The notes below the pieces were generated by a model. The model searched no databases and had not been told where the DNA came from. It worked only from the letters and a program-made list of their open reading frames with translations. A stretch of DNA of 64,000 nucleotides from Bacillus sp. HSf4 (GTDB lineage: Bacteria; Bacillota; Bacilli; Bacillales; Bacillaceae): contig NZ_CP120679.1 of the NCBI RefSeq assembly GCF_029537375.1, positions 4,359,397 through 4,423,396 of the forward strand, read 5' to 3'. Positions 353 through 16,701 of the stretch are shown here, piece by piece; the stretch's first letter is position 1, and every line of letters begins with the position of its first letter. The position numbers and the translations under genes were made by a program.

Positions 353-1087
353 TTAAAGTTCTTGGACAATCTCTTCATCGAGTATTGTTTTCCGTTTTTC
401 CCAATCGGGCATTAGAGTATATAACATTTTATAAAAGTTATCGCTGTGGTCGTTATATTTAAAATGAATCAGCTCATGCAGAACAACATAGTCGATGCAA
501 TGTTTGGGAGCTTTAATTAGTTCCGTATTCAAAAGTATTGTATTTTTATCTACTAAAGCTGAACCCCATCGTGCTTTCATCAAGCGTAAATCTAAAGCAG
601 GCTTTTCTACCCCATATTTCTGCATGCATAAGCTCATTTTGTCGAGGGATTCTTGAAATATTTTCAGAGCTTTTTCCCGATACCAACCATCCATCAACTT
701 CTCTTTTCGCTGATAGTTGTGCGGGTTTTGCACATATAAGTAAATAAATCCTCGCAAATATTTCACCATTTCTTCATCTTCTGTTTTTTCAACACGCAAA
801 CGGTATTGCTTTCCTAAATAACGAAAAGATTCCCCGCTTACATACTCTCGCTCACTTTGTTTATGTGGCATTACGTCTTCGAATGTTTTCACATTCTTCA
901 AAATCCAAGCACCTTTGCTTTTAACAAATTCATAAATAAAATCAATCGGTACTTGATCATTTGCTGATACTTGAATAGTCATATCAGGCTTAATGTTTAA
1001 ATTCACATTCTTAACGTTTTTACGTTCAAGCATAAAATCAATACATTTGTTGCCATAGTGGATTTGATGCCTTTCCATGTTGTTCAC
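353..1087 (-). CDS. YgjP-type (DUF45/SprT-like) zinc metallopeptidase of the type I RM operon
   Basis: This 244-residue protein carries the zinc signature HELIH with a third His/Asp cluster just after it (NDHSDNF), typical of YgjP/DUF45 metallopeptidases. Such genes are often the last gene of type I restriction operons in bacteria, but their role there is not settled; trimming or quality control of restriction subunits is speculation. It begins 4 bases after hsdR stops, so translation is probably coupled. The first start is GTG at 1087; an in-frame ATG three codons later (1078) is a reasonable alternative because AAGG sits very close to the GTG. Confidence 0.85.
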   Translation of the reverse strand: MNNMERHQIHYGNKCIDFMLERKNVKNVNLNIKPDMTIQVSANDQVPIDFIYEFVKSKGAWILKNVKTFEDVMPHKQSEREYVSGESFRYLGKQYRLRVEKTEDEEMVKYLRGFIYLYVQNPHNYQRKEKLMDGWYREKALKIFQESLDKMSLCMQKYGVEKPALDLRLMKARWGSALVDKNTILLNTELIKAPKHCIDYVVLHELIHFKYNDHSDNFYKMLYTLMPDWEKRKTILDEEIVQEL

Positions 1088-1091
1088 AACC

Positions 1092-4000
1092 TTAGTAACG
1101 TCTGATGGCTACCGTTTTTATTTGTTCAATCAATTTATCAATCGTGTCATAATCTAACTCAACGTTATGTTCTTTGGAAAAGTCATATAACAGATCATCC
1201 AAATCTTGTGCAATACGATTATGAATTTGAAGGTTATTATGCCAATCAACCTTCTGATGCTGTTTGATGATTTCATCCATCTTCAAGGCTAATTCTCCAA
1301 GTAAGTCCTCACCGTAACTTGCACGTTCTTCTTTCGTTTCAACTAAAATGTCTTTCGTCACACCATAAAATGCTTGTGCATCCTTATTTTCTTTTATGAC
1401 GTTTGGGTAATCTTCTTTAGATTCACCGTTTCTGTAATCGTTCATAATATCTTTCATCTTGTTCAAGTATTCTGCTTCAGAAATCCGCTTATCCTTATAT
1501 TCCTGAATCGCCTCTTGAATCCGTTCAGAAAACTTCTTATAGTAAGCAGGGTTTTCATCCCATTTCGCATGGACACTCTTCGTTAATCGTGTCCGAATGG
1601 CATCCGCTTTTGCCCGTTTCGAATCTAAACGCTCCAATTCTTCTTCAAAAGCCTTTTCGTTTAAGATGTCGACAGGATTTGTAATACGAATGACTTGCTC
1701 TGCTGAGATATATTGATCCATGAGCTTTTGCATTTTCGCCTCGTACTCTTTATGGTCAATTGTATCCGAATAACGTAATTTCACACTTTTTCTTAGCTCT
1801 TGGAAAAACTTCAAATCCCTTTTATACGTAGCAAGTTCTTCTGGCTGTAGTGCATTATAGATTCGTTCAGATTCCAGTGCGATCCCAAGGTTGCGACCGA
1901 ATTGACTTAATGTATCATAAAACGATTCTCTCTTCTCTTCATCTTCTAACAATACTTCATACTCTTCGACATCTTGCTTATTTTTAATTGATGAGAACAG
2001 TTGCAGTAAGTCAGAATGATGCTGACGAAGTGAACCGACTACGCTAATGACATCATGAATGGCTCCTTGCAGATCTTTCGGATCAAAATTCTCTAACCCT
2101 GCACCTGAATACATTTGCAGAGCTTCATCTAATTTTGATAACAACCCACGATAATCAATAATAAGTCCGTAGTCTTTTCCTTCGTATAGTCTATTTACCC
2201 TGGCGATTGCTTGTAAGAGCGTATGCTCTTTCATTGGTTTATCAATATATAAAAGTGACGCACGAGGGGCATCAAAACCTGTTAGTAGTTTATCAACTAC
2301 AATAAGTAAATCAATATCATCGCCATGAATAAACTCATCTTTAATGGCATCTTCATAGTCTTCTGCAGTTCCATAACGATTCATCATTCGTTGCCAAAAA
2401 CGTTGGATCTTATCATTCGATTCTTCATCTATCGCATCATGACCTTCTCGTTGGTCTGGAGGAGAAATAACGACTGCACAGTTTAAATCACCAAGTTCTT
2501 CAAAGGCTTCCAAATACCGAATCGCTTCCATCTTGCTATTAGTCGCAAGCATGGCTTTAAACTGGGACCCTTGCGTCTTGTAATTGCGATAAAAATGATC
2601 ATTAATATCAAAAGCAATCATACTAATACGCTGATCAGAAGATGCTATTCGTTCAAAATGGCTCCATTTTTTCATTACCTCGTCTTTTTGCTTATCGTTC
2701 AAATGACGAGTGATCATCGACAGTCGGTTATCAATCGCTGTTTTGTTGACTGTTTGATCAACCATTTTTCCTTCATAAAGCAACGGAACGATTGCACGAT
2801 CTTTTACGCCATCTGCAATTGTGTATTTATGAATGAGCTTACCGAATTTGATCATCGTGCTTTTCTCTTTTTTCATCAATGGGGTTCCTGTGAATCCGAG
2901 ATAACTTGCGTTTGGGAACACTTTTTTCATTTTAATGTGCAATTCACCATACTGGGTGCGGTGCGATTCATCAACAAGTACAAAGATATCTCTCGATTCA
3001 ATTGGCTGTTGTTTTGTTGATGCCGTATCGAATTTATGCACTAATGTCGTGACGATATCAGTATTCCCATCTTTAATCAGTGAAACTAAATGACTGCCTG
3101 ATGTCGCTCTACTTGCTTTTAATCTCGTGTGATTAAACGTTTTGTGAATTTGCTTATCCAGTTCTACCCTGTCTGTTACGACAATAATTTTAGGATGGTA
3201 GTCATTTAATTCCGATAAAATATAACGAGCAAGCATCACCATTGTGAGCGATTTCCCACTACCTTGCGTGTGCCAGATTACCCCACTCTGGCGATTTCCG
3301 TTTTCATCTCGCTCTTGGATTGTTTTTAATATCTCTTTTATCGCAAAATATTGCTGATATCGAGTCACCTTTTTTATATCTTTATCAAATAGTGTAAAGA
3401 AACAAGTCAATTCAAGAAGTCGTTCTGGGTGAAACAAGGAAATGATGTTTTTGTCTTGCATCGTTGGCAAACGGTTCGCAACGGTTTGATGTAACCAATG
3501 ATCTAACCATTCCTCATGCTCTTCTTTCCACACTGACCAGAACTTCTTCGGTGTTCCACATGTCGCATATTTTGTTTCGTTTTTATTTGTTGCCATCACC
3601 AACTGCACAAACTTAAACAGTTGGGGAACATAGTCGTTTTTTTGATTTCGAATCATTTGGCTAATTCCTTGTTCCATCGAAATCGAAGCCTTCTTGCATT
3701 CAATGACCACAAACGGAATGCCATTTACAAACAACACAATGTCTGGGCGAACTGTACCCCTGCCGTCTACACGTTCTACAGAAAATTCTTCTACAATGTG
3801 AAATACATTATTTTCAACATTTTCCCAATCAATATATTGAATCGTAAAAGACTTTTTCGAGCCGTCTGGAAGTAATTCTGTATAAGTTCTCCCTAACATC
3901 AACGTTTCATAAATGCTTTCATTCGCCTTTACAAGTCCATTTGTGAGTGGCTCATCCAAGTCACGCATCGCTTGTTGGATATTCGCTTCACTGAACTTAT

Positions 4001-4199
4001 ACGTAACATCTTTATACTGATAGGAATTTAACTCCTTCAATTTCTTTTCCAATACCGTTTTCAGCAAAACACTATAGAGATTCTCACGCATCGCCTCAGC
4101 TCGTTCTGCTTCTATGTACTGATAACCTAATTCTTGCAATACCTCGATTGCAGGCTGTTGACTAATATAACGTTCATCATAACTTTGCGGAATCGACAT
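1092..4199 (-). CDS. hsdR: Type I restriction enzyme, R (motor/nuclease) subunit
   Basis: At 1035 residues this is a full-length HsdR. The N-terminal nuclease core shows PDIVLFVNGIPFVVIECKK, a PD-(D/E)XK motif. A Walker A motif (TQGSGKS) follows at about residue 314, with a DEAH-like DESH box further on and superfamily-2 helicase motifs to about residue 700. The long C-terminal helical part would dock on the methyltransferase core. With HsdM and HsdS it translocates and cleaves DNA lacking the host methylation. ATG at 4199 has a GGAGGTG Shine-Dalgarno. No frameshift or motif loss is seen, so restriction is probably active. Confidence 0.95.
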   Translation of the reverse strand: MSIPQSYDERYISQQPAIEVLQELGYQYIEAERAEAMRENLYSVLLKTVLEKKLKELNSYQYKDVTYKFSEANIQQAMRDLDEPLTNGLVKANESIYETLMLGRTYTELLPDGSKKSFTIQYIDWENVENNVFHIVEEFSVERVDGRGTVRPDIVLFVNGIPFVVIECKKASISMEQGISQMIRNQKNDYVPQLFKFVQLVMATNKNETKYATCGTPKKFWSVWKEEHEEWLDHWLHQTVANRLPTMQDKNIISLFHPERLLELTCFFTLFDKDIKKVTRYQQYFAIKEILKTIQERDENGNRQSGVIWHTQGSGKSLTMVMLARYILSELNDYHPKIIVVTDRVELDKQIHKTFNHTRLKASRATSGSHLVSLIKDGNTDIVTTLVHKFDTASTKQQPIESRDIFVLVDESHRTQYGELHIKMKKVFPNASYLGFTGTPLMKKEKSTMIKFGKLIHKYTIADGVKDRAIVPLLYEGKMVDQTVNKTAIDNRLSMITRHLNDKQKDEVMKKWSHFERIASSDQRISMIAFDINDHFYRNYKTQGSQFKAMLATNSKMEAIRYLEAFEELGDLNCAVVISPPDQREGHDAIDEESNDKIQRFWQRMMNRYGTAEDYEDAIKDEFIHGDDIDLLIVVDKLLTGFDAPRASLLYIDKPMKEHTLLQAIARVNRLYEGKDYGLIIDYRGLLSKLDEALQMYSGAGLENFDPKDLQGAIHDVISVVGSLRQHHSDLLQLFSSIKNKQDVEEYEVLLEDEEKRESFYDTLSQFGRNLGIALESERIYNALQPEELATYKRDLKFFQELRKSVKLRYSDTIDHKEYEAKMQKLMDQYISAEQVIRITNPVDILNEKAFEEELERLDSKRAKADAIRTRLTKSVHAKWDENPAYYKKFSERIQEAIQEYKDKRISEAEYLNKMKDIMNDYRNGESKEDYPNVIKENKDAQAFYGVTKDILVETKEERASYGEDLLGELALKMDEIIKQHQKVDWHNNLQIHNRIAQDLDDLLYDFSKEHNVELDYDTIDKLIEQIKTVAIRRY

Positions 4200-4244: not shown

Positions 4245-5363
4245 TTATACCTTCACTCGGACTTTCCCTGTTAGAAGAAGTTGAATAAGACCTTGTTTTT
4301 GTTTCTTTAAATAAGTTACTTCTTTAAGTAGAAGATCTAAATCCCTATCCATACTATTTAACACGTATGCAATTGCTTTTTGTTCCTCCATGCTCGGCAT
4401 TTTAACTTTATAATAATCCAAAAAATCTTTAGGTACGTGAGGTATGCCTGATCCTTCCCTTAACCTTTGAATTTTTTGTTCATTCATTTCAAGATGTTTC
4501 TGCAGAAATATATTGTGTATGGACTTACATTCCAATTTTACAAAAGTTGATCCAACAGCTCCTTCAACTCCCGTAAATGCCATTCCAGCCCTTGATCCAT
4601 CCCATAGAAGTAAAACATCATTTTTCTCTGCGAAAACCGTAGCATCATTAGAATAGTTTTTAAACGTTCCAGATTCTAAATAATCCATATCAATCGCAGG
4701 GAACTTTCCACCTTCTAAATACTCCACTGCTTTTCCTTTGATTTTTTTCACCACTTTTGCCAGCTTAACTTCCTTCCACTCTCCATCAAACCCAGGCAAT
4801 CTCACTTCACCCGTCAGCAACTTCTCCATTAATCCCTTTTTCTGCACTTTCTTCTGCTCGATTAGCTTTTCTTTTAGCTCAATTACCTTGTCCCAAGTGG
4901 AGAGGATGGAGGCGATTTTTTGTTGTTCTTCAAGAGTTGGAACTGCAAATATAACTTCTGACACATAACTCCAATCAGCTCTTGGCATTTTTGAACCAGC
5001 TGATTTGTTAGCATTTTGAGAAAACCTGTTTGATTGTATTAAATAATATAAGTATTCATTTAATACCTTTCCTTCAGTGCCTTCTAATACCCATATTTCA
5101 GAAGAACAAACTCCATGAAACTGAGGGAAGTGAAATTTTTTAAGGTACGGTCTCAATTTTCCAAACAACACTGAACCTGGCTTAAATTTATTTTTCACAC
5201 TCTGTTGAGTAATGCTATCCGTATAACCTATAAGTCTACCTGTTTCACTTTCTAAGTGTTCTAATTCAATACACTTAAAATTGTCCTTGTCTTTTTTTGG
5301 ATTATATTTTTCTTTTGATAAAGTCACAACCTCACCAAATTCATATTTCCTCCAGTCCTCCAA
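4245..5363 (-). CDS. hsdS: Type I restriction-modification specificity subunit, full length
   Basis: The 372-residue protein has two target-recognition domains, each followed by a conserved spacer helix: LEEQQKIASILSTWDKVIEL around residue 145 and MEEQKAIAYVLNSMDRDLDL near the C terminus. This is the classical duplicated HsdS layout that reads a bipartite DNA site and holds two HsdM and two HsdR. The start is TTG at 5363, supported by an AGGTG Shine-Dalgarno. It is the second specificity gene in this operon; a half-length one lies upstream of hsdM. Confidence 0.92.
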   Translation of the reverse strand: MEDWRKYEFGEVVTLSKEKYNPKKDKDNFKCIELEHLESETGRLIGYTDSITQQSVKNKFKPGSVLFGKLRPYLKKFHFPQFHGVCSSEIWVLEGTEGKVLNEYLYYLIQSNRFSQNANKSAGSKMPRADWSYVSEVIFAVPTLEEQQKIASILSTWDKVIELKEKLIEQKKVQKKGLMEKLLTGEVRLPGFDGEWKEVKLAKVVKKIKGKAVEYLEGGKFPAIDMDYLESGTFKNYSNDATVFAEKNDVLLLWDGSRAGMAFTGVEGAVGSTFVKLECKSIHNIFLQKHLEMNEQKIQRLREGSGIPHVPKDFLDYYKVKMPSMEEQKAIAYVLNSMDRDLDLLLKEVTYLKKQKQGLIQLLLTGKVRVKV

Positions 5364-5393
5364 AGTTGCACCTACTTTCTAATCTGTTAATGA

Positions 5394-6383
5394 TTAAAGT
5401 TTCTTTTCCTCTAAATACTTTTGAAAATCATCTCGCTTCGGTTCTGCTAATCGTTGTTGATGAAACACTTCATATTGTTCGTTTGCAAATTGTTCCGCTA
5501 CTTTTGCTTTAATTTTCCCAGCGTTAGTTAATATTTCATGTTCATTAAACTCTAAAAATGCATCTAATTTTTCTGCCCAATCTTTCATATACATCGGCTT
5601 TTTCTTCTTTGCTTGCGATTCGGCATAGTCTAAGTACATCGTAACAATACGGTTTAAATCGCTGAGTTCTTCTTGTGATAGATAATTTTTCGCTACTGTT
5701 ACATCTTGCTTTCGTACCTTATCACCTTTCCAACTCGTTAAGCCCATGTTTGGCTTTGTTGCATCCGCTCGTTTCATTATCAGTTCCGAAGCAGTATGTC
5801 CATGGATTGCAAAGTGAAGTTTGTTTTGAACGGTTGCAAAGAATTCTCTTGCAATTGGTGTATTCGGATCGTAATCAATAGATGTAGCATAAATATCTGT
5901 TATTTTGTAATAAAAACGTCTTTCGGAAGCACGAATATCACGAATACGTTCCAATAATTCATCAAAATAATCTGCCCCAATATTCCGCATTTCTTTTAAG
6001 CGTTCGTCATCCATCGTAAATCCTTTTACCATATATTCATTTAAACGCTCTGTTGCCCATTGACGGAATTGTGTACCACGATGGGATCGTACACGATAGC
6101 CGACTGCAATAATCATTTCAAGGTTGTAAAAGGTCACTTCACGTTCAACTTCACGAGAACCTTCAAGTTGAACTATCCGGTTTTTCCGGATAGTTAAACT
6201 TTCCTCTAACTCTTTTTCTTCGTATATGTTTTTTATATGCTCATTGATTGTTTTAACACTTTTCTGAAACAACTCTGCCATTGCCTTTTGTGTCATCCAA
6301 ACCGTTTCACCTTCTAAGCGAACCTGAATTTTCGTATCTCCATTTTCGGTTTGGTACATTAATAAATCAGAAGTATTGCTCAT
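5394..6383 (-). CDS. rhuM: RhuM-family protein within the hsd operon
   Basis: The 329-residue protein matches the RhuM family, first named from a Salmonella pathogenicity island. It has an N-terminal winged-helix-like segment (VWMTQKAMAELFQKSVKTIN), the family hallmark GYRVRSHRGTQFRQWA around residue 100, and a C-terminal part resembling Fic/Doc-neighbour proteins. RhuM genes are common between hsdM and hsdS or hsdR, but their function is unknown. ATG at 6383 follows AGAGGTG. The coding region contains a perfect 10-base inverted repeat at 6171-6195. Family assignment is firm; any role in controlling restriction is a guess. Confidence 0.88.
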   Translation of the reverse strand: MSNTSDLLMYQTENGDTKIQVRLEGETVWMTQKAMAELFQKSVKTINEHIKNIYEEKELEESLTIRKNRIVQLEGSREVEREVTFYNLEMIIAVGYRVRSHRGTQFRQWATERLNEYMVKGFTMDDERLKEMRNIGADYFDELLERIRDIRASERRFYYKITDIYATSIDYDPNTPIAREFFATVQNKLHFAIHGHTASELIMKRADATKPNMGLTSWKGDKVRKQDVTVAKNYLSQEELSDLNRIVTMYLDYAESQAKKKKPMYMKDWAEKLDAFLEFNEHEILTNAGKIKAKVAEQFANEQYEVFHQQRLAEPKRDDFQKYLEEKKL

Positions 6384-6403
6384 GTAAACACCTCTCTTGC
6401 TAT

Positions 6404-6427
6404 CATTTTGTTGACCTCAACAAAATG
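6404..6427. repeat. Inverted repeat between hsdM and rhuM
   Basis: Ten-base arms CATTTTGTTG and CAACAAAATG are separated by 4 bases, immediately upstream of the rhuM Shine-Dalgarno. No T-run follows on the minus strand, so it looks like an mRNA hairpin or protein-binding site rather than a terminator. Confidence 0.7.
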
Positions 6428-6441
6428 GTGTATTTTCTATC

Positions 6442-7971
6442 CTACAGCCCTAATTCCTTCAAATATTTCTCCATTTCTGCTTCAACTTCTTGTAGCTCCA
6501 GCTTAATGTTTGCGATATTCTCTTTCACCGCATCCATATCCACTGGCTCTTCTTCTTCAAATGTGTCAACGTATCGAGGAATGTTCAGGTTATAGTCGTT
6601 TTCTTTTATTTCATCTAAAGTGGCAACATAAGAGTATTTATCAATCGTTTCTTGCTTTTCATATGTGTCAACAATTTTAGCGATGTCTTGTTCTCTTAAC
6701 TGATTTTGATTTTTCCCTTTTTGATAATGTTCTTCACCAGAAGCATCTATGAATAAAACATCTTTACGGGTTCTATTCTTTTTGAAAACCATGATACAAA
6801 CTGGTATCCCAACACCATAGAATAAGTTTTCAGGCAATCCAATGACTGCATCCAGTAAGTTCATCTCAATAATTTGTTGACGAATTTTCCCTTCACTTGC
6901 ACCTCGGAAAAGAACACCATGCGGTAGAATTGTTGCCATTCTTCCGTTTTCCGCTAACGAATAGAGCATGTGTTGAACAAATGCATAGTCCCCTTTAGAA
7001 CTTGGTGGAACACCCCATTCAAAACGTCTATGTGGATCTAAACTTGCTTCCATTTTAAATTTGCTATCATTTGTTCCTTCTCCCATGAAGCCCATTGCCC
7101 ATTTGTCCAATGAGAATGGTGGATTCGCTACGATAGCCTGGAATTTCATCAATTTTCCATCTTCTAAGTGAAGTGGGTTCGCTAATGTATCACCCCACTC
7201 AATCTTTGCATCATCAATTCCATGCAAGTACATATTCATTAGTGCTAATGAATGGGTCGTACCATTACGTTCTTGACCATAAATAGCTACCTTTTTATTC
7301 GGTACTTGGTTAGCAACTCGAATGAGAAGTGAACCAGATCCACACGTAGGATCGTAAATACGGTCATTTTCTTGAGGTTTGACAAGTCGTGCTAACAGCT
7401 CGGATGCCATAGAAGGTGTATAAAATTCGCCACCCTTCTTTCCCGCATCAGATGCAAAACGTTCAATCATGTATTGATAAGCATCACCAATGACATCTTC
7501 ATTTCCTACAACAGAAGGCTTTAATGTCAGCTTATTAAAGTCCTCTAATAAAGAACGGAGCATTGTATTTCGTTCTTTTGCCTTCCCAAGAATCGCTTCA
7601 CTATTAAAATCAATGTTACGGAAGACACCACGAAGCTTACCTGTATTTTCGTTTTCCAGACGTTCCAATGCTTTATTGATAATTTCACCGATTTCTGCAT
7701 CATTCCGTTTGCTATACAAATAATCAAATGTAGACTGTTCATCTAACACAAAACGCTCTCTGGATAATGCACGTTGAATACGTTGCTCATCACCATCATA
7801 ACGCTTCGTATACTCTTCTAAATGCTCTTTATAAGCATCACTTAAATACTTGATGAACAGCATTGTCAGTATATAATCCTTGTATGTACTGGAATCAACC
7901 TTTCCTCTAAATGTATCAGCCGCTTGCCATAAAACACTGTTAATTTGATCTTTTGTTACTTTTTCACTCAT
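6442..7971 (-). CDS. hsdM: Type I restriction-modification methyltransferase subunit
   Basis: A 509-residue N6-adenine methyltransferase with an N-terminal HsdM helical domain, the AdoMet-binding motif DPTCGSGSLL near residue 215, and the catalytic motif NPPFSLDKW near residue 290. It methylates adenines in the sequence chosen by HsdS and forms the core of the restriction complex. ATG at 7971 overlaps the stop of the half-HsdS gene (ATGA) and has a GGGAGGA Shine-Dalgarno, so expression is tightly coupled to that gene. Confidence 0.95.
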   Translation of the reverse strand: MSEKVTKDQINSVLWQAADTFRGKVDSSTYKDYILTMLFIKYLSDAYKEHLEEYTKRYDGDEQRIQRALSRERFVLDEQSTFDYLYSKRNDAEIGEIINKALERLENENTGKLRGVFRNIDFNSEAILGKAKERNTMLRSLLEDFNKLTLKPSVVGNEDVIGDAYQYMIERFASDAGKKGGEFYTPSMASELLARLVKPQENDRIYDPTCGSGSLLIRVANQVPNKKVAIYGQERNGTTHSLALMNMYLHGIDDAKIEWGDTLANPLHLEDGKLMKFQAIVANPPFSLDKWAMGFMGEGTNDSKFKMEASLDPHRRFEWGVPPSSKGDYAFVQHMLYSLAENGRMATILPHGVLFRGASEGKIRQQIIEMNLLDAVIGLPENLFYGVGIPVCIMVFKKNRTRKDVLFIDASGEEHYQKGKNQNQLREQDIAKIVDTYEKQETIDKYSYVATLDEIKENDYNLNIPRYVDTFEEEEPVDMDAVKENIANIKLELQEVEAEMEKYLKELGL

Positions 7972-8704: not shown

Positions 8705-9835
8705 TTAGCCGTTATATAGGTAGAAATCTGCCATTCCTTCTTGCCGTATTCGGTAACTGTCTTCCGTCTCCCATGGTTCTTCTTCCAAAAAGTCCTCCAC
8801 CAATCTATTGGGCGAATAATCCAATCTTGTTAAAATTGCAGATTGAATGCCTTTTGTAACCTTTTCTTCCTGTTCACGTATAACTTTTATATCTTTTCCG
8901 CCATAGAAGTATGGACTAAAGAATCGAATAAATCGCTCAAATATCTCAGCGATTTGTTCAAATGTTTCTTCATATGTTTGCAATGGTTGAAAATAAACAC
9001 CGATTCTTCGATTTTCAAAACAAATATGCGGATGTACTTTTTGTCGAATGGTTTGCTCCACCTTCTTAAATTCATCATATTCCTTTTCTCTCGATGAATC
9101 GAAATACAATTCTACAAACGCCAATGATTTTGCATTATTTGCCGAACAGCGATAAGAGATGTTGCTTCGACCAGATCCAACTGTAAGCACGTGATCGTGG
9201 AGGTTCGTTTTTTTTCGATAGTGAAAGTTTAAATAGTACGGCATTCTCTTTTGCAATACTTTTAATAGTGCCTTCTTTATATCATCTGGTCGGGAGAAAT
9301 CGTAAGTTGGAGGTTCAATCGCCACACTTCCACAATGCATTGGATGTAAATTAATCAGTTTATATTCCACCTGTAATAGATTATCTATGTCATTTAGAAC
9401 ATGCATCTTGTCATATACGTCAAGCTTGTACAATTTATTTAGACTATGCAGTTCTTTCAAGGCTTCATCAGAAATAGTGAGTGCGTAGAAGTCAATATAT
9501 AGTTTATTGTGTTTTGCCATCCAATCTTCTAACTCTTGCAATAACACTTTGTCGAAAGAACGAGCCACCCAAATAATGACCGATTCGGGGTATCTATTCA
9601 TCATGTTTTGTATTCGATCCAAATATTTTGTATTGGCTTTAGTCAATTGAATCTCCATGTAAACGCCCAGTTTACGTATACGGTTTACTGCTGATAAATC
9701 AATATTGCTATTTGCATGACGCTGTTCCAACACAATATTTGATAGTTCACAGTCTAATAGTTCCTTCCAACCTTTATAAAAATCCTTTAGATATATTGAT
9801 AGTATTGCTTCTCCGTTACTTCCTTTTTTACTCAT
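8705..9835 (-). CDS. DUF4268-like protein with possible PD-(D/E)XK nuclease domain
   Basis: The most likely start is ATG at 9835, preceded by GGGAGG at 9 bases, giving 376 residues; a longer frame opens at 9874 without such a site. The N-terminal third shows the pattern of DUF4268 proteins: a conserved Asp, then GVYMEIQLTKANTKYLDRI (ExQ motif) and ESVIIWVA, which resembles a PD-(D/E)XK nuclease core. The C-terminal half resembles the DUF4268 domain (LAFVELYFDSSREKEYDEF). It is a single-gene unit with its own terminator beside a restriction operon, so a defence role is plausible. Function is not established and the family call is moderate. Confidence 0.6.
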   Translation of the reverse strand: MSKKGSNGEAILSIYLKDFYKGWKELLDCELSNIVLEQRHANSNIDLSAVNRIRKLGVYMEIQLTKANTKYLDRIQNMMNRYPESVIIWVARSFDKVLLQELEDWMAKHNKLYIDFYALTISDEALKELHSLNKLYKLDVYDKMHVLNDIDNLLQVEYKLINLHPMHCGSVAIEPPTYDFSRPDDIKKALLKVLQKRMPYYLNFHYRKKTNLHDHVLTVGSGRSNISYRCSANNAKSLAFVELYFDSSREKEYDEFKKVEQTIRQKVHPHICFENRRIGVYFQPLQTYEETFEQIAEIFERFIRFFSPYFYGGKDIKVIREQEEKVTKGIQSAILTRLDYSPNRLVEDFLEEEPWETEDSYRIRQEGMADFYLYNG

Positions 9836-9874
9836 TTCTACATTCCTCCCATTATCGGTTAATATTTTTGTCAT

Positions 9875-10220: not shown

Positions 10221-10655
10221 TCACGATTCTTGCAATTCGACAATTAATTCACCAATTCTCTTCAAGGCATCTAACAACTGTTCAACTGATGTTGCATCTG
10301 CCTCTAATACCTCTTGTAAAATATCTAATAAAACTTCTTTTTGATCTGCACTTAATAGTTTTCCTTCAAACTCGATTTCGTTTGTGAAGAACATTTCTTC
10401 CAATGAAAGTGGTTCATTTGTATCCTTTGCATCTAATCCAAGCAGAACATTTACGTCTACATCAAGTCCCTCAGCAATGTGTTCAAGCACCGAGAATGTA
10501 GGTCTCTTTCGTTCACCACGTTCGAGCCTATTCAAATACGAAGGGGTTACGTTACTGCGTTCTGCTAATTGTTTCAATGAATAACCTTTGGATATGCGAA
10601 GATTTTTCAACAACTTAGCAAAATCATCATTCATCTGTTTTCTACCTTTTCCCAT
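10221..10655 (-). CDS. XRE-family HTH transcriptional regulator
   Basis: Residues 5-65 form a Cro/CI helix-turn-helix (LAERSNVTPSYLNRLERGER), followed by an acidic helical tail likely to mediate dimerisation. AAGGAG is only 3 bases from the first ATG (10661) but 9 bases from the ATG at 10655, so the shorter 144-residue form is preferred. It resembles SinR-like and phage/ICE repressors. A perfect palindrome overlaps its own -10 box, so it is probably autoregulated, and it is a candidate controller of the island genes. Confidence 0.88.
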   Translation of the reverse strand: MGKGRKQMNDDFAKLLKNLRISKGYSLKQLAERSNVTPSYLNRLERGERKRPTFSVLEHIAEGLDVDVNVLLGLDAKDTNEPLSLEEMFFTNEIEFEGKLLSADQKEVLLDILQEVLEADATSVEQLLDALKRIGELIVELQES

Positions 10656-10678
10656 TTTCATCTACTCCTTATTTACGT

Positions 10679-11314: not shown

Positions 11315-12304
11315 TTACCATAAAAATTTATCAAGAGGATTGCTTAGAGTGTTTGGTGCTTTTGAGTAATTTTTAGGAATGGGGATTGGATTGATGCCAA
11401 GTTGACTCAACATTTCCAAGCGGTTTCGAAGTGTAGCTTTTGTCATGGATTTCAGTGGGGTATCAATGCTATGAGAAGAGACTTGTTTCAAAAATTCAAT
11501 TAGCTTATTTTTATTGGAATTAGAGAGGGAGGAGTGACGTATACGTTTTCTTGCTTCATCTAACTTATAAAATTCTCCAGGATGGTAAATGGGTGACATA
11601 TATTTGCGGAAATAACCTCGATAGACTTCCTCTTTCATATATTCTTTTAATTTCTTAGGTCGACAATTCCCTTTGTCTTGTCGAGCCATATAATTAATAT
11701 GATCTTTGAGAATCCGTACTTCAAATCTTAATACGTTTTTTTCATACTCCTGTATCCTTTCTTTTTTGAATAAGCGTTCTTCTTCTTTTGAATAAACTAC
11801 AGCCTGTGCAGAATCTGATGCATGGTAAACTGTTGTTTCATATTTTTGAAAAACACCTTCAGAATTACGCTTTCCTATATACTTTTTCTGATACCGATGT
11901 GATTTAGTAAGCTTCTGATACAAGTGAAGCAAAATATCTCGGTGGAGCTTTTCCTTTACAACTACATCGTATCGGTAATCAATTCTTTGTAGGATATGAT
12001 GTTTGAAATGCAAAAAATGTTTAAAGAGAATCCAAAGAATATTCATTATCTCTTGTTCCAACGAATTATAATCATCTTCTGTAATGTCTGACTTACCAAG
12101 AAGGAGAATTGCATCTATGAACATATATAACTTCCACTGTCCATTGCCTTTATTTGAAATTTGAAGCGTAATTCCTTTAAACTTACCACCGTAGTAATTA
12201 ACAAAGTAGTCATTCAGTTGCGTGTAAATAATATTAAATCTTTTTTGCAAATCCATAACTTCATAGTATTCAATGGGAAAATACAGCTTAATTGTATGGA
12301 TCAC
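11315..12304 (-). CDS. Putative replication-initiator-like protein (gene II/X-like)
   Basis: The 329-residue protein starts at GTG 12304 with a GGAGGTG Shine-Dalgarno. It has a central RIDYRYDVVV segment and a later VLRFEVRILKDHI segment, which recall the phage/plasmid gene II/X family of rolling-circle initiators, plus a basic C terminus. I do not see a clear complete HUH motif, so the assignment is tentative. Position between the regulators and the recombinases suits a gene for replication or transfer of the excised element. It could equally be an island-specific protein of unknown function. Confidence 0.45.
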   Translation of the reverse strand: MIHTIKLYFPIEYYEVMDLQKRFNIIYTQLNDYFVNYYGGKFKGITLQISNKGNGQWKLYMFIDAILLLGKSDITEDDYNSLEQEIMNILWILFKHFLHFKHHILQRIDYRYDVVVKEKLHRDILLHLYQKLTKSHRYQKKYIGKRNSEGVFQKYETTVYHASDSAQAVVYSKEEERLFKKERIQEYEKNVLRFEVRILKDHINYMARQDKGNCRPKKLKEYMKEEVYRGYFRKYMSPIYHPGEFYKLDEARKRIRHSSLSNSNKNKLIEFLKQVSSHSIDTPLKSMTKATLRNRLEMLSQLGINPIPIPKNYSKAPNTLSNPLDKFLW

Positions 12305-12600: not shown

Positions 12601-12720
12601 AGACTGTTTTACTTAGATACATGAACAATTCAATAGGTGTACTTGTTTCAAGGGGGAGTATGCCCTCTTGCTTAACTACCTATTGTGTTTTTTGTATATC
12701 TAAGTAAAGCAGTCTTTTTT
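12601..12720 (+). ncRNA. Nested-hairpin RNA ending in a T-run, ahead of the recombinase genes
   Basis: Three stems are nested. The outer arms are 12601-12619 and 12697-12715, 19 pairs with a single G-U. The middle arms are CAATAGGT (12631-12638) and ACCTATTG (12678-12685). The inner arms are CAAGGGGG (12649-12656) and CCCTCTTG (12663-12670). A run of six T follows at once. The promoter at 12529 is about 35 bases from the structure. It could be an independent small RNA of about 155 nt or a transcription attenuator for the recombinase operon. I recognise no T-box or known riboswitch motif. Confidence 0.65.
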
Positions 12721-12848: not shown

Positions 12849-13022
12849 ATGAAAGAATCCCCTACTTTAAATCTCCATGAAGAAATTGAAAAACAATTAT
12901 TAATTGGAGCAGAGCTGGAAAAATACAATGCCCGAAAATTTCTTAACTTACTGTCCGATATGATTGTCAAATATGAATCTACTATTTACGACAAATTTAA
13001 GGAAAGCAGATTAGGAGCGTGA
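12849..13022 (+). CDS. Small protein of 57 residues upstream of the recombinases
   Basis: ATG at 12849 follows AAAGGAAG and opens a 57-residue frame (MKESPTLNLHEEIEKQLLIG at the start) ending at TGA 13020-13022, 7 bases before the first recombinase. It is predicted to be mostly helical and mixed-charge, without a recognisable domain. Its coupling to the recombinase suggests a directionality or accessory factor, but this is inference only. Confidence 0.6.
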   Translation: MKESPTLNLHEEIEKQLLIGAELEKYNARKFLNLLSDMIVKYESTIYDKFKESRLGA

Positions 13023-13029
13023 ATGATTT

Positions 13030-14499
13030 ATGCGAGCTGTTGGTTACGTTCGAGTAAGTACCGATAAACAATTAGACAATACTTCTATTGGAAAACAAAG
13101 AGAGGAAATTGAAAAATACTGCAAAAATAATGATATTTCCCTCGTTCACATCTTTGATGAGGGGGCGAAATCGGCTGAATCATTTAAAAATCGTACTGAA
13201 TTTAAAGAGTTGTACTCATTTGTTTTAGATAAAAAAAACAAAATAGATTACGTTGTTGTTTATGATTCTGATCGTATATCGAGGGATAATTTAGAATCCC
13301 TTTATATTTATAAGCGATTAACACAGGCGGGAATAAACCTTATCTGTATAGCTGACAATATTGATACAAGAGATCCAAGAGCGAAAATTCTTTACCAAAT
13401 CATGTCATTAGTTGCTGAATTAGAAAGAGATATGATTATTTTCCGAACAAACTCCGGCATGGAAAAAAGAGCTTCTGAAGGACATTTTAATGGAGGCGTA
13501 ATTTATGGATATGCATCAAAGAATAAGAAACTTAAAATTGTGCCTGAAGAAGCAAAAGTCATAAATTATATTTTTGAGAAGTATGCGATAAATCAGTGGG
13601 GTTATAGAAAAATAGCGTCACACCTAAATACTTTAGGTATCACTACTAAAAAAAATAATTTATGGTCAATAACTGCCGTAAAAACGATACTAAGTAACCC
13701 CATATATATTGGCAAAGTAAAGTGGCGGAATGAACTGAGAGATGGAAAACATGCTCCCATCATAGATATAGAATTATGGGAGAAAACACAGCAAGTAATG
13801 GATCTAAACAGTTATGTGCAAGAGAAGTTGCATCCTGGAAGCTTCCCCTTATCAGGTTTGTTAAAATGTCCAGAATGTGGTTCAGCCATGGTACAAGGAA
13901 ATAGCAGTCCAAAATACAAATACTACCAATGCTCCAGAAATAAGAACAGTGGTAGTAAGGCATGTTCCTCAAACCTTGTAAAAAAGGATTATGCTGAGCA
14001 ACATGTATTTGATCAATTATTTTGTGATTTGCAAAAATACAATGTTAAAGAGCCATTGATCAAAATGATTCACTCATACGCCATGAGTGAAATTGAGCCA
14101 TTGGAAACAACTATCAAGACGTATGAAGTTGAGTTAGAGGAATTAAAAACGAAGAGAAAAGAACTTATAAATTGGAGGCTAAAAGATATTATTTCAGAAG
14201 AGATTTTAAAAGAGGAAATGGAAGATTTACGAGAGGAAGAAAAATTAATAATAACTCGAATTGAAAAATTACAGCACCTCATTAAACTCAGAGATAAAAC
14301 CTTTTTAACCGATATCATTTCAACTTCACTACACGATCTAAAGAACTTTTTCAATATTATCGAAGATGATGACAAAAAGGAATTACTTCGTTCTCTCATT
14401 GAAGAGATTCACGTAAATCCAGGAAAAACTACTAAGGATAGAACAATCAAAGAAGTGATTTATAAGTTTGATTTAAAATATTTGAATCAATTGAACTAA
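13030..14499 (+). CDS. Large serine recombinase 1
   Basis: The 489-residue protein has a resolvase catalytic domain (residues 1-150) with the nucleophile in YVRVSTD (Ser10) and the conserved Arg pair in DRISR. A recombinase domain follows (about 160-265), then a zinc ribbon with Cys280, Cys283, Cys301 and Cys312, and a charged coiled coil (about 345-420). This is the layout of phage-type integrases and of staphylococcal Ccr proteins. It lies 66 bases ahead of a second, different serine recombinase, and a hairpin with a T-run sits between them. It is apparently intact and is expected to act on the rlmH att site together with, or instead of, its neighbour. Confidence 0.93.
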   Translation: MRAVGYVRVSTDKQLDNTSIGKQREEIEKYCKNNDISLVHIFDEGAKSAESFKNRTEFKELYSFVLDKKNKIDYVVVYDSDRISRDNLESLYIYKRLTQAGINLICIADNIDTRDPRAKILYQIMSLVAELERDMIIFRTNSGMEKRASEGHFNGGVIYGYASKNKKLKIVPEEAKVINYIFEKYAINQWGYRKIASHLNTLGITTKKNNLWSITAVKTILSNPIYIGKVKWRNELRDGKHAPIIDIELWEKTQQVMDLNSYVQEKLHPGSFPLSGLLKCPECGSAMVQGNSSPKYKYYQCSRNKNSGSKACSSNLVKKDYAEQHVFDQLFCDLQKYNVKEPLIKMIHSYAMSEIEPLETTIKTYEVELEELKTKRKELINWRLKDIISEEILKEEMEDLREEEKLIITRIEKLQHLIKLRDKTFLTDIISTSLHDLKNFFNIIEDDDKKELLRSLIEEIHVNPGKTTKDRTIKEVIYKFDLKYLNQLN

Positions 14500-14527
14500 G
14501 AGAAGGGGAACATCCTTTCTCTTTTTT
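14499..14527 (+). terminator. Terminator or attenuator between the two recombinases
   Basis: Arms AGAGAAGG and CCTTTCTCT (one bulge) are followed by six T. It would reduce read-through from recombinase 1 into recombinase 2, so the two may be expressed at different levels. Confidence 0.65.
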
Positions 14528-14565
14528 GTGTTTCATATTAAAATTACAAGGAAGGGAGGATTATT

Positions 14566-16281
14566 ATGCACGAAATAAAACGTGTCGCAATTTACTGTAG
14601 GGTTTCTACCGAAGAGCAGGCAACGGAAGGATACAGCATATCTGCCCAATTACAAACTTTACGTCAATATACTCAATTATATGGTTGGGAGATTGCAGAG
14701 GAATATGTAGATGAGGGAATAAGTGGAAAGAACATTAGCGGTCGCCCTGCAATGCAAAAACTTATTTCAGATGTTGAAAAGGATAAATTTCAAGCTGTTC
14801 TTGTTTGGAAGATCTCACGCCTATCACGAAATATGTTAGATACTCTCACTCTATTAGACAAATTCGAAGATTATGGAGTAAAGTTCATCTCTTACTCTGA
14901 AAACTTTGATACAGGCAGTCCAATTGGTCGTTTAGTTGTTCAACTAATGGCTTCCATTGCAGAAATGGAGCGTAATACGTTATCTGAGAACGTTAAGCTC
15001 GGAATGAAACAGAGAGCATTAGAAGGTTCATGGAATGGAGGCGTTGTATTTGGCTACGATACAATTGAAAAAGAGCTTGTGATCAACAAAAAGGAAGCTG
15101 AGATTGTACAACAAATCTATCAACTATATGCCAATGGTAAAGGCTTAAAGTCAATCGCAAACTACTTAAATAAAGCAGGTTACAGAACTAAACGGAATTG
15201 TTATTTTTCGATAAACGGTGTAGCTCAAATCTTAGACAATGTTATCTATAACGGGAAGATCAGTTGGTTAAAAGTTGAAAATTGGGATACAAAACGGAGG
15301 AGAGGGAAAAATCCAAATCCTATCCTTGTAGAAGGACAGCATGAAGCCATTATTTCCGATGAATTATGGAGTATGGTACAAGCAAGGCGGAAAAGTAAAT
15401 CATTTAAACAAAGGCAATCTAATGAACCATTTTTACTTAGCAGTCTTTTACGTTGCCCCGATTGTGGTCAAGGTATGGTTCCTGCCATTACAACAAATAA
15501 ACGAAAGGATGGAACAAAGAAGAAATATCGTTATTATGTTTGCTCTAACTTTCATAACAAAGGTTCATCTGCATGTAGAGCAAATTCAATAAAAGCATAT
15601 GATGCAGAATACGAAGTAATTAATAAGATTGAGAAGATCCTTTCCAACCAAAATCAGTTATTCTCTAAACTTCAATCTATAAATACTACTTCGATTGAAT
15701 CTTTAAACCAACTCAATAGTGAATTGAAACAATTAGAAAATCGCCTATCAGAAATACAAGAACTACAGAATCGTTACTTGGAAGCATTTGAGCAAAAGAC
15801 CTTACCAATAGCAATCTTGCAAGAACGATTACAGCATGTCTCTAAAGAAAAAGTAGAGTTAGAACAAAGGCACAATGAAATCACTGGGCAATTAAGCTCC
15901 AACGATGCAAGAGTAATCCAACCAGAGCTTATCCAAAAGCTTTTAGACAAATTCCTTTTAGTCTATAAACAATCATCAAGAGAAAGACAAAAACATTTAC
16001 TTCAACTCTTGCTTAACAAGGTTACAGTAAAACACCCAATTGGGCAATCACGAATGGTCGATCAAGTTGAACTCGACTTTGACTTTTCAGAGGTCAATAT
16101 TTCTAAGTCCTTTACACTTATCCACATGTTGTATCGAGAAACGGATAATGCAAATGGTTTTCCACAGCCAATACCCGCTTCCGACAACAAAATACCACCT
16201 TATTTACATCATTTTTTGCCTCTATTTATGGTACGGTTCCCCCCGATTAATCCGAAACGCCCGATAAACCTGCTCGAGTAA
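14566..16281 (+). CDS. Large serine recombinase 2, with its C terminus encoded across the att site
   Basis: The 571-residue protein has catalytic Ser14 in YCRVSTEE, the motif KISRLSRN, a recombinase domain and a zinc ribbon starting at Cys297 and Cys300 (CPDCG), followed by a coiled coil to about residue 455. ATG at 14566 has a GGAGG site. The last 19 residues, from the codon at 16222, are read from the antisense strand of rlmH, so the two genes overlap tail to tail by 60 bases. On excision the C terminus would change to whatever lies at the other end of the element. It is probably the integrase for the rlmH target. Confidence 0.93.
16213..16245. other. Attachment site (rlmH side) of the island
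   Basis: The last rlmH codons encode EPYHK-stop, read on the minus strand as GAACCGTACCATAAATAG. This corresponds to the SCC attB core in staphylococcal rlmH, which encodes EAYHK. The island sequence starts immediately after. The exact crossover bases cannot be defined without the other end. Confidence 0.7.
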
Positions 16282-16701
16282 AATCAGCCTCATCAGCTGA
16301 TGTGGAAACGTCATCCGTGAAAACGACAGCTTTTCATCTGCGCGCTTCAGGACGGCGTCGCTCAAGCCGAGTGAGCCGCCGATGACGAAGGTTACCTTGC
16401 TCTTTCCATATGTGGCGAGTCTATCCATATTATCGGCTAATTCTTCTGAGCTTTTCATTTTTCCTTCGATCGCCAAGGCGATGACGTGGGCGTCGGGGCT
16501 GATTTTGGAGAGGATTCGTTCGCCTTCTTTGTCTTTGATGATTTTCATGTCCTGGTCGCTTAAGTTCTCCGGCGCTTTTTCGTCCGGGAGTTCGATGATG
16601 TCGATTTTGGCGTAGGCTGAAAGCCGTTTGCTGTATTCGTCGATTCCTTGTTTTAAATATTTTTCTTTCAGTTTTCCGATTGCTACGATTGATATATTCA
16701 C
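16222..16701 (-). CDS. rlmH: 23S rRNA (pseudouridine-1915 N3)-methyltransferase
   Basis: A full-length 159-residue SPOUT-class methyltransferase (YydA of B. subtilis), with the knot region [20 protein letters not shown] and the invariant C terminus INRGEPYHK. It methylates pseudouridine 1915 in helix 69 of 23S rRNA using AdoMet. The start codon is GTG at 16701. The coding sequence is complete despite the island inserted at its stop codon, so integration is silent for the protein, as in SCC-bearing staphylococci. Confidence 0.97.

Follow-up and report, generated by a model that had tools for sequence, protein, structure and literature searches.

An SCC-like island of Bacillus whose recombinase gene ccr2 and target gene rlmH probably exchange 3′ ends at each move

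Introduction

SCC elements insert at the 3′ end of rlmH, carry large serine recombinases, are bounded by att sites with inverted repeats, transport restriction–modification (RM) and defence genes, and occur in composite arrays, according to the available text of PMC10061031 and PMC6222049. ECC has the same rlmH target, a ccrAB-like pair of recombinases and att sites with a TATCATAA core (PMC6222049, in its accessible portions). In the Bacillota, Bacillus among them, islands with one or two large serine recombinases and RM cargo are found mostly downstream of rlmH, and those rlmH islands that have PolA-SSB primases carry a helicase and primase pair, as described in the portions at hand of PMC10061031.

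Recombination sites that fall inside a gene are known from other systems. The archaeal suicidal integrases of the SSV type have the recombination site within the integrase gene; they are tyrosine recombinases that become split into inactive parts, and the text available from PMC8371274 calls them exclusive to archaea. In the integration-dependent immunity of mycobacteriophages, attP lies near the 3′ end of a gene, and integration alters the C-terminus of the protein (PMC4557955 and PMC6109161, as excerpted).

The island described here appears to be an SCC-like integrative element that works like SCC and ECC, and Bacillus islands of this sort were already known; the surprise is in the arrangement of the genes. 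We propose that its recombinase gene ccr2 and rlmH probably exchange 3′ ends each time the island moves, with an effect that is mainly structural. To our knowledge, the staphylococcal ccr genes do not span att, and the choice between integration and excision in SCC-type islands is poorly understood. A recombinase that rewrites its own end makes it testable whether the tail decides the direction of recombination.

Extent and Ends of the Island

The window, that is, the whole stretch of 64,000 nucleotides that was analysed, is the final 64 kb of a 4.42-Mb single-contig genome. The island has a size of 20,528 bp (~20.5 kb), with the TC positions of its two ends at contig 4355106 and 4375634. Its far (left) end was located by comparison of island ends at contig 4355106-4355107 (L006 15107-15108), 4.3 kb beyond the window. 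At the right end, where the core match in G000 is at 4375609-4375635, the features are the following:

16213..16239 (unstranded): right-end att core, 27 bp, a single stretch that serves as the 3′ part of ccr2, as rlmH's final codons with their stop, and as one half of attP; near-fixed across the 41 right ends
16238..16239 (unstranded): TC (GA when read along rlmH), the dinucleotide at which crossover is inferred, from the onset of host variation, from being the sole bases common to both sides in this genome, and from an empty site in a genome related to a different carrier
16211..16223, + strand: right arm of the attP inverted repeat, 13 bases, with an exact inverted copy at the left end, near L006 15121-15133
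16222..16701, − strand: rlmH, the target gene, with its last codons and stop in island DNA, overlapping the end of ccr2

A scan of the named genomes gave 49 loci. The 41 right ends adjoining rlmH comprise 39 of the loci L008-L050, the window and L087. Across them, positions -25 to +1 relative to TC are invariant or almost so, apart from an A/G at -10, and strong variation begins at the very next base. A search of 44 genomes gave left ends of the type GGT-TC-ACCGTGGTTATTTAAGAGGCAAAAA in 32, against 0 for the reversed control. The presence of a repeat at the other end, which the earlier note had proposed as a test, is borne out: the right-end arm, ATTTTTTGCCTCT, recurs there exactly in inverted form over its 13 bases, and the core is repeated imperfectly, with 11 of 15 bases by a count made by eye. 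No second exact copy of the 15-base core is found in its own genome. The sequence beyond the left end resembles the right end at 12 of 15 positions, which suggests an older neighbouring element.

From the arms, the centre of the dyad would fall on GA/TC, giving a crossover of 2 bp, the length established for serine recombinases. In this genome, the bases flanking GA differ between host and island, and the common part is GA only. The exchange point would be this 2-bp GA within rlmH, five sense codons before the end of the gene. The boundary had earlier been placed exactly at the rlmH stop codon; it lies instead at TC 16238-16239, the GA of the Glu codon in E-P-Y-H-K-stop.

All 41 right ends (41 of 41) have rlmH closing with GAA CCG TAY CAY AAA TAG (EPYHK-stop). 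Among these codons, only TAC/TAT and CAT/CAC vary, changes that are silent in RlmH and read as V/I and M/V in Ccr2. In genomes of the genus that have no island right end, the rlmH endings differ, for example GAGCCTTATCATAAGTGA. The last codons and stop of rlmH are supplied by the island. The 27-bp core is under three constraints together, as an att site, as rlmH codons and as ccr2 codons.

The Recombinase Pair

The two recombinase genes, for which the names ccr1 and ccr2 are used for convenience, and the small ORF before them are laid out as follows:

12849..13022, + strand: ORF of 57 aa directly upstream of ccr1; in a cluster of 23 loci, with 21 sets extracted
13030..14499, + strand: ccr1, large serine recombinase, 489 aa, from its domains and the tree
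14566..16281, + strand: ccr2, large serine recombinase, whole frame of 571 aa, from the ORF and its domains
14566..16239, + strand: island-borne part of ccr2, 558 codons without a stop, from the domains; 40 of 44 relatives are open to the core
16240..16281, + strand: host-supplied end of ccr2, 13 residues and a stop, antisense to rlmH, from the ORF and the comparison of tails

Both genes have Resolvase, Recombinase and Zn-ribbon domains, and their products are 28% identical; two intact, dissimilar large serine recombinases are indeed side by side at the rlmH boundary, as the earlier note had claimed. Intact sets of the small ORF, ccr1 and ccr2 could be extracted from 21 of the 44 ccr2 loci, and elsewhere ccr1 is missing from the stretch examined, broken, or lost at a contig end. 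The pairing of ccr1 and ccr2 is common, not universal. The 57-aa ORF matched no known family; from its position, it is possibly an accessory or directionality factor. At six loci (L023, L029, L030, L043, L048 and L049), two different genes are found upstream of ccr2, and by the reading of their sequence they appear to be a metal-efflux pair.

ccr2 Runs Through Its Own Attachment Site

At 39 of the 43 loci L008-L050, ccr2 runs at its end into a match to rlmH, and the four exceptions, L009, L040, L041 and L043, are ccr2 loci away from rlmH. Of 44 ccr2 genes, 40 have an uninterrupted frame up to the att core (L042, L043, L044 and L047 are the others), and all Pfam domains of ccr2 lie before the core. 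Since the stop is supplied from outside the island, the total length of ccr2 ranges from 565 to 716 residues across loci, and the host-coded tail varies widely among them. Of 1956 proteins passing the E limit, 120 homologs were listed; among these, 115 match the core pattern and 120 of 120 a slightly looser one, and 105 have a tail like antisense rlmH by a pattern of our own, the other 15 having other tails. Taken together, these comparisons indicate that ccr2 spans its own attachment site and that, when integrated, it lacks its own stop and finishes within rlmH read in antisense. A ccr2 annotated on a chromosome includes, in that case, a host-coded tail that is foreign to the island's own protein. 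As far as our searches show, the arrangement is new: the literature covered, to which most subscription journals did not belong, describes no bacterial serine recombinase gene spanning attP.

In P0023, P0031, P0084, P0090 and L041, ccr2 is joined to a different end, FTVMYLNEVF or similar; each of these is probably where another rlmH element of an array has its left end. The large serine recombinases P0226 and P0230, both distant, end in LPLTMIRF followed by an antisense-rlmH-like tail, and given these, the gene-through-att arrangement may be older or wider than the ccr2 family.

What holds the frame open over the core? In the nine core codons of ccr2, synonymous differences amount to 0.007 per site versus 0.746 in the catalytic domain, and pN/pS is 4.6, as expected if the DNA and rlmH, not Ccr2, hold the core. 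The 20 codons ahead of the core, codons 524-543, are near neutral (pN/pS 0.73). A core frozen as DNA, preceded by a near-neutral linker, would fit an alternative in which the ccr2 residues after ~540 are functionless, the frame is open since the core lacks a stop there, and the overlap with rlmH is incidental. However, despite the neutral linker, the 40 open genes reach the core without a stop or frameshift, and the PPYL just upstream of the core is conserved as protein, with changes that are mostly synonymous (588 synonymous versus 40 other pairs at the Leu codon). These observations, together with the in-frame stop and hairpin at the other end of the island, make a functionless tail unlikely.

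The Stop Codon and Hairpin at the Far End

Read in the ccr2 frame, the left ends have a stop at the fifth codon in 34 of 34 unique sequences (32 TAA, 2 TGA), a count that is partly by construction, since the left ends were gathered with patterns containing the stop triplet (3 mismatches allowed). A search of the DNA examined that put no condition on this triplet gave 38 matches; 35 of them had the stop, and the other three are unlike island ends. The five codons read exactly FTVVI in 24 of the 34, with 9, 7 and 21 variants by codon position. A hairpin with a T-run follows the stop in 26 of the 34, at -10 kcal/mol or below in 25; the same search found one in 52 of 340 random windows and 45 of 340 shuffled ones, of which 3/340 and 0/340, respectively, at -10 kcal/mol or below. 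The stem sequences of the left-end hairpins differ among loci.

Three natural closed junctions were found, all of them in genomes other than this one. L162 reads ..PPYLQQFLPLFMIRFPVVI-stop, with 100 open residues; L217 reads ..PPYLQLFFPLFMIRFTVVI-stop, with 39; and L218 has 17. All three are on truncated ccr2 copies, so that no ccr2 of full length was observed to end in a stop belonging to the island.

The presence of a stop and hairpin in frame at the far end raises the question of whether the swap of tails acts as a switch of the integration state. In that case, the FTVVI form of the circle and the rlmH-tailed form of the chromosome would differ in activity or stability, and this difference would set the direction of recombination or limit excision. 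The counts for FTVVI and its codon-position variants, and the PPYL kept as protein before the core, are in its favor. In addition, CcrB proteins end, by alignment, in SLFLPQTLFLQI, which is somewhat like a 13-residue sequence compared, a likeness that is suggestive only, and attP within a repressor gene is a known switch, as the accessible parts of PMC4557955 and PMC6109161 describe. On the other hand, the 21 third-position variants are confined to two codons, in sequences that are related to one another, and the host tail is as variable as described above. The core, moreover, is held as DNA and by the rlmH codons, and its conservation need not stem from the Ccr2 protein. We consider such a switch possible but doubtful. 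Equally tentative is its extension to a Bacillales-wide family of serine recombinases in which the gene spans its own attP and the two C-termini would be a built-in integration sensor that sets direction.

Proposed Mechanism

The reading that we prefer is an exchange of 3′ ends with a mainly structural effect. Ccr2, probably with Ccr1, would recombine attP of the excised circle with attB in rlmH at the 2-bp GA; the recombination sites come from sequence comparison, and the circle and the roles of Ccr1 and Ccr2 are what we infer. The attP site lies inside ccr2, five codons ahead of its stop, as the comparison of island ends and the three natural closed junctions show. On the circle, the gene would end in F-T-V-V-I-stop, with a terminator-like hairpin immediately after. 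On integration, the stop and hairpin would be shifted to the island's far end, and ccr2 would be fused to antisense rlmH, which would give it a host-coded tail and a stop; in return, the island would supply rlmH with its last codons and stop. Since the stop and hairpin are displaced and the rlmH end is supplied, ccr2 and rlmH would trade 3′ ends whenever the island moves.

We judge the main effect to be structural, in that the recombinase and attP would form one travelling unit, the catalytic protein would be complete in both states, and the end of rlmH would keep working. The scheme is built on what the sequences themselves establish, namely both ends, the crossover region, the open frame over att, the far-end stop with its hairpin, the island-supplied end of rlmH, one empty site and the three closed junctions.

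Cargo and Other Parts of the Island

The remainder of the island contains the following features:

12601..12715 (unstranded): long inverted repeat whose 38-nt arms are 82% complementary, in the gap that separates the Rep-like gene from the small ORF
11315..12304, − strand: Rep-like gene (Phage_CRI, phrog_702), from weak matches
10221..10661, − strand: HTH regulator, from its domain
8705..9874, − strand: PDC-S11-like gene, with DUF4268 below cut-off; perhaps the nuclease-like gene of the earlier note
4245..7971, − strand: part of a type I RM operon, with hsdM, RhuM (PDC-S05) and hsdS
1092..4199, − strand: hsdR
353..1087, − strand: YgjP-like metallopeptidase, from its domain
L006 15282-18047, just inside the left end of the island: SIR2 (PDC-S25), NADAR antitoxin and DarT1, side by side

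The cargo had been given earlier as a type I RM operon and a nuclease-like gene. The type I RM operon stands, and the set was too narrow, as the island also carries RhuM, the PDC-S11-like gene, the YgjP-like peptidase, SIR2, and DarT1 with the NADAR antitoxin. In L008 and in L017, the segment that runs from the Rep-like gene to the small ORF and contains the long hairpin has 92% identity, yet the ccr1 of L017 is only 36% identical; because of this, Rep and the hairpin look like a separate module that is exchanged independently of ccr1. The two may form an origin of replication or transfer. The loci L026, L027, L031, L034, L036, L040 and L045 have in common, upstream of their small ORF, CTTAAAATATTAA..AAGTACTATGT or AAGGTACTATGT, followed by CAACCA..GCCGGC; an Rfam search that included five loci with this stretch returned tRNAs only.

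Relationship to SCC and Other Systems

Against the CcrB model, ccr2 scores 375 bits and ccr1 217, with a cut-off of 900; against CcrC, the scores are 328 and 138 (cut-off 900), and against CcrA, 134 and 103 (cut-off 700). In a tree of 89 proteins made by a quick method, with no bootstrap and with long branches, the ccr2 sequences form a clade of their own (34 rows, 100) in the vicinity of CcrB and CcrC, from which other recombinases separate it, and those of ccr1 form another (21 rows, 91) that does not adjoin CcrA. No SCC-type helicase, or helicase/primase operon, was found among the 16 island ORFs scanned with Pfam, which are the longer ones.

Might the island be a true SCC element, with orthologous ccrAB or ccrC, in another genus? 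The same target gene, the paired serine recombinases, a TAYCAY core, the RM cargo and the place of ccr2 in the tree would all be in keeping with it. With scores far under the three cut-offs, other recombinases among the clades, ccr1 away from CcrA, no SCC-type helicase in the ORFs scanned and ccr2 at the very end of the island, we regard this as highly improbable. The likeness to SCC consists in the insertion at the rlmH 3′ end, the att sequences at both ends with repeats (imperfect direct and exact 13-base inverted), the one or two large serine recombinases, the RM and defence cargo, and the composite arrays. The island differs from SCC in that it misses the curated CcrAB/CcrC family cut-offs (at best 375 bits against 900 for CcrB), in that its ccr2 is at the extreme end and spans att, and in that a Rep-like gene takes the place of the SCC-type helicase among the 16 ORFs. 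The suggestion in the earlier note of a system parallel or related to SCC is thus upheld for the rlmH target, the paired serine recombinases and the att sites at both ends, and fails for SCC proper. The possibility it raised that phylogeny would make these recombinases unrelated phage integrases, with no conserved partner, has mostly fallen away: in the tree, ccr2 is a clade among CcrB, CcrC and other recombinases and ccr1 a separate one, and ccr2 has no phage match at E 1e-60 or better.

ECC is alike in its rlmH target, paired recombinases and att sites, a likeness of description and not of sequence, and the available text of PMC6222049 does not mention a recombinase gene crossing att. The Bacillota rlmH islands with PolA-SSB primases share the site, the type of recombinase and the RM cargo, but the scanned ORFs of the present island include no helicase or primase; an att site inside the recombinase gene is not mentioned in the accessible portions of PMC10061031. 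With the suicidal integrases, the island has in common a recombination site inside the recombinase gene, ccr2 being open through the core with its stop at the other end. Unlike them, ccr2 is a bacterial serine recombinase whose domains are kept, and only its end changes. In the mycobacteriophage immunity systems, the gene concerned is the repressor, whereas here it is the recombinase.

Empty Sites and Distribution

An empty site was found for the island at L045, in Cytobacillus oceanisediminis 2691. The flank outside its left end is matched in 20 of 36 relatives, and 12 loci were inspected, one of them the carrier itself, to give one clean empty site. In this genome, G526, the flank (99.4% identical) comes directly after rlmH, and its rlmH agrees with that of the L045 carrier at each of the 75 bases compared up to the crossover. 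In L174, this flank comes after a different left-end type. For the island of the window, no empty site was found among 44 genomes of its genus; its left flank is matched in 7 of the 44, including its own genome, and in the other six only by short parts.

Within the order, the right end is present in 47 of 397 genomes (37 of 135 genera) and the left end in 40 of 397 (28 of 135 genera), with 0 in the reversed control of each. Thirty right-end loci were drawn from the order, and 29 were matched; 12 of these, among them the present island, are open over 508 residues or more ahead of the core, a lower bound set by the DNA examined, and the remaining 17 are shorter or remnants. A search of viral contigs for the closed or right-end patterns gave 0 matches, and the ccr2 protein found no phage record at E 1e-60 or better. 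Against plasmids, it found 4 records at E 1e-80, each with less than 60% identity. In L097 (G014) and L092 (G036), a second, partial rlmH lies several kb downstream of the intact copy, with 259 and 127 bases matched, respectively; these copies are perhaps leftovers of earlier elements.
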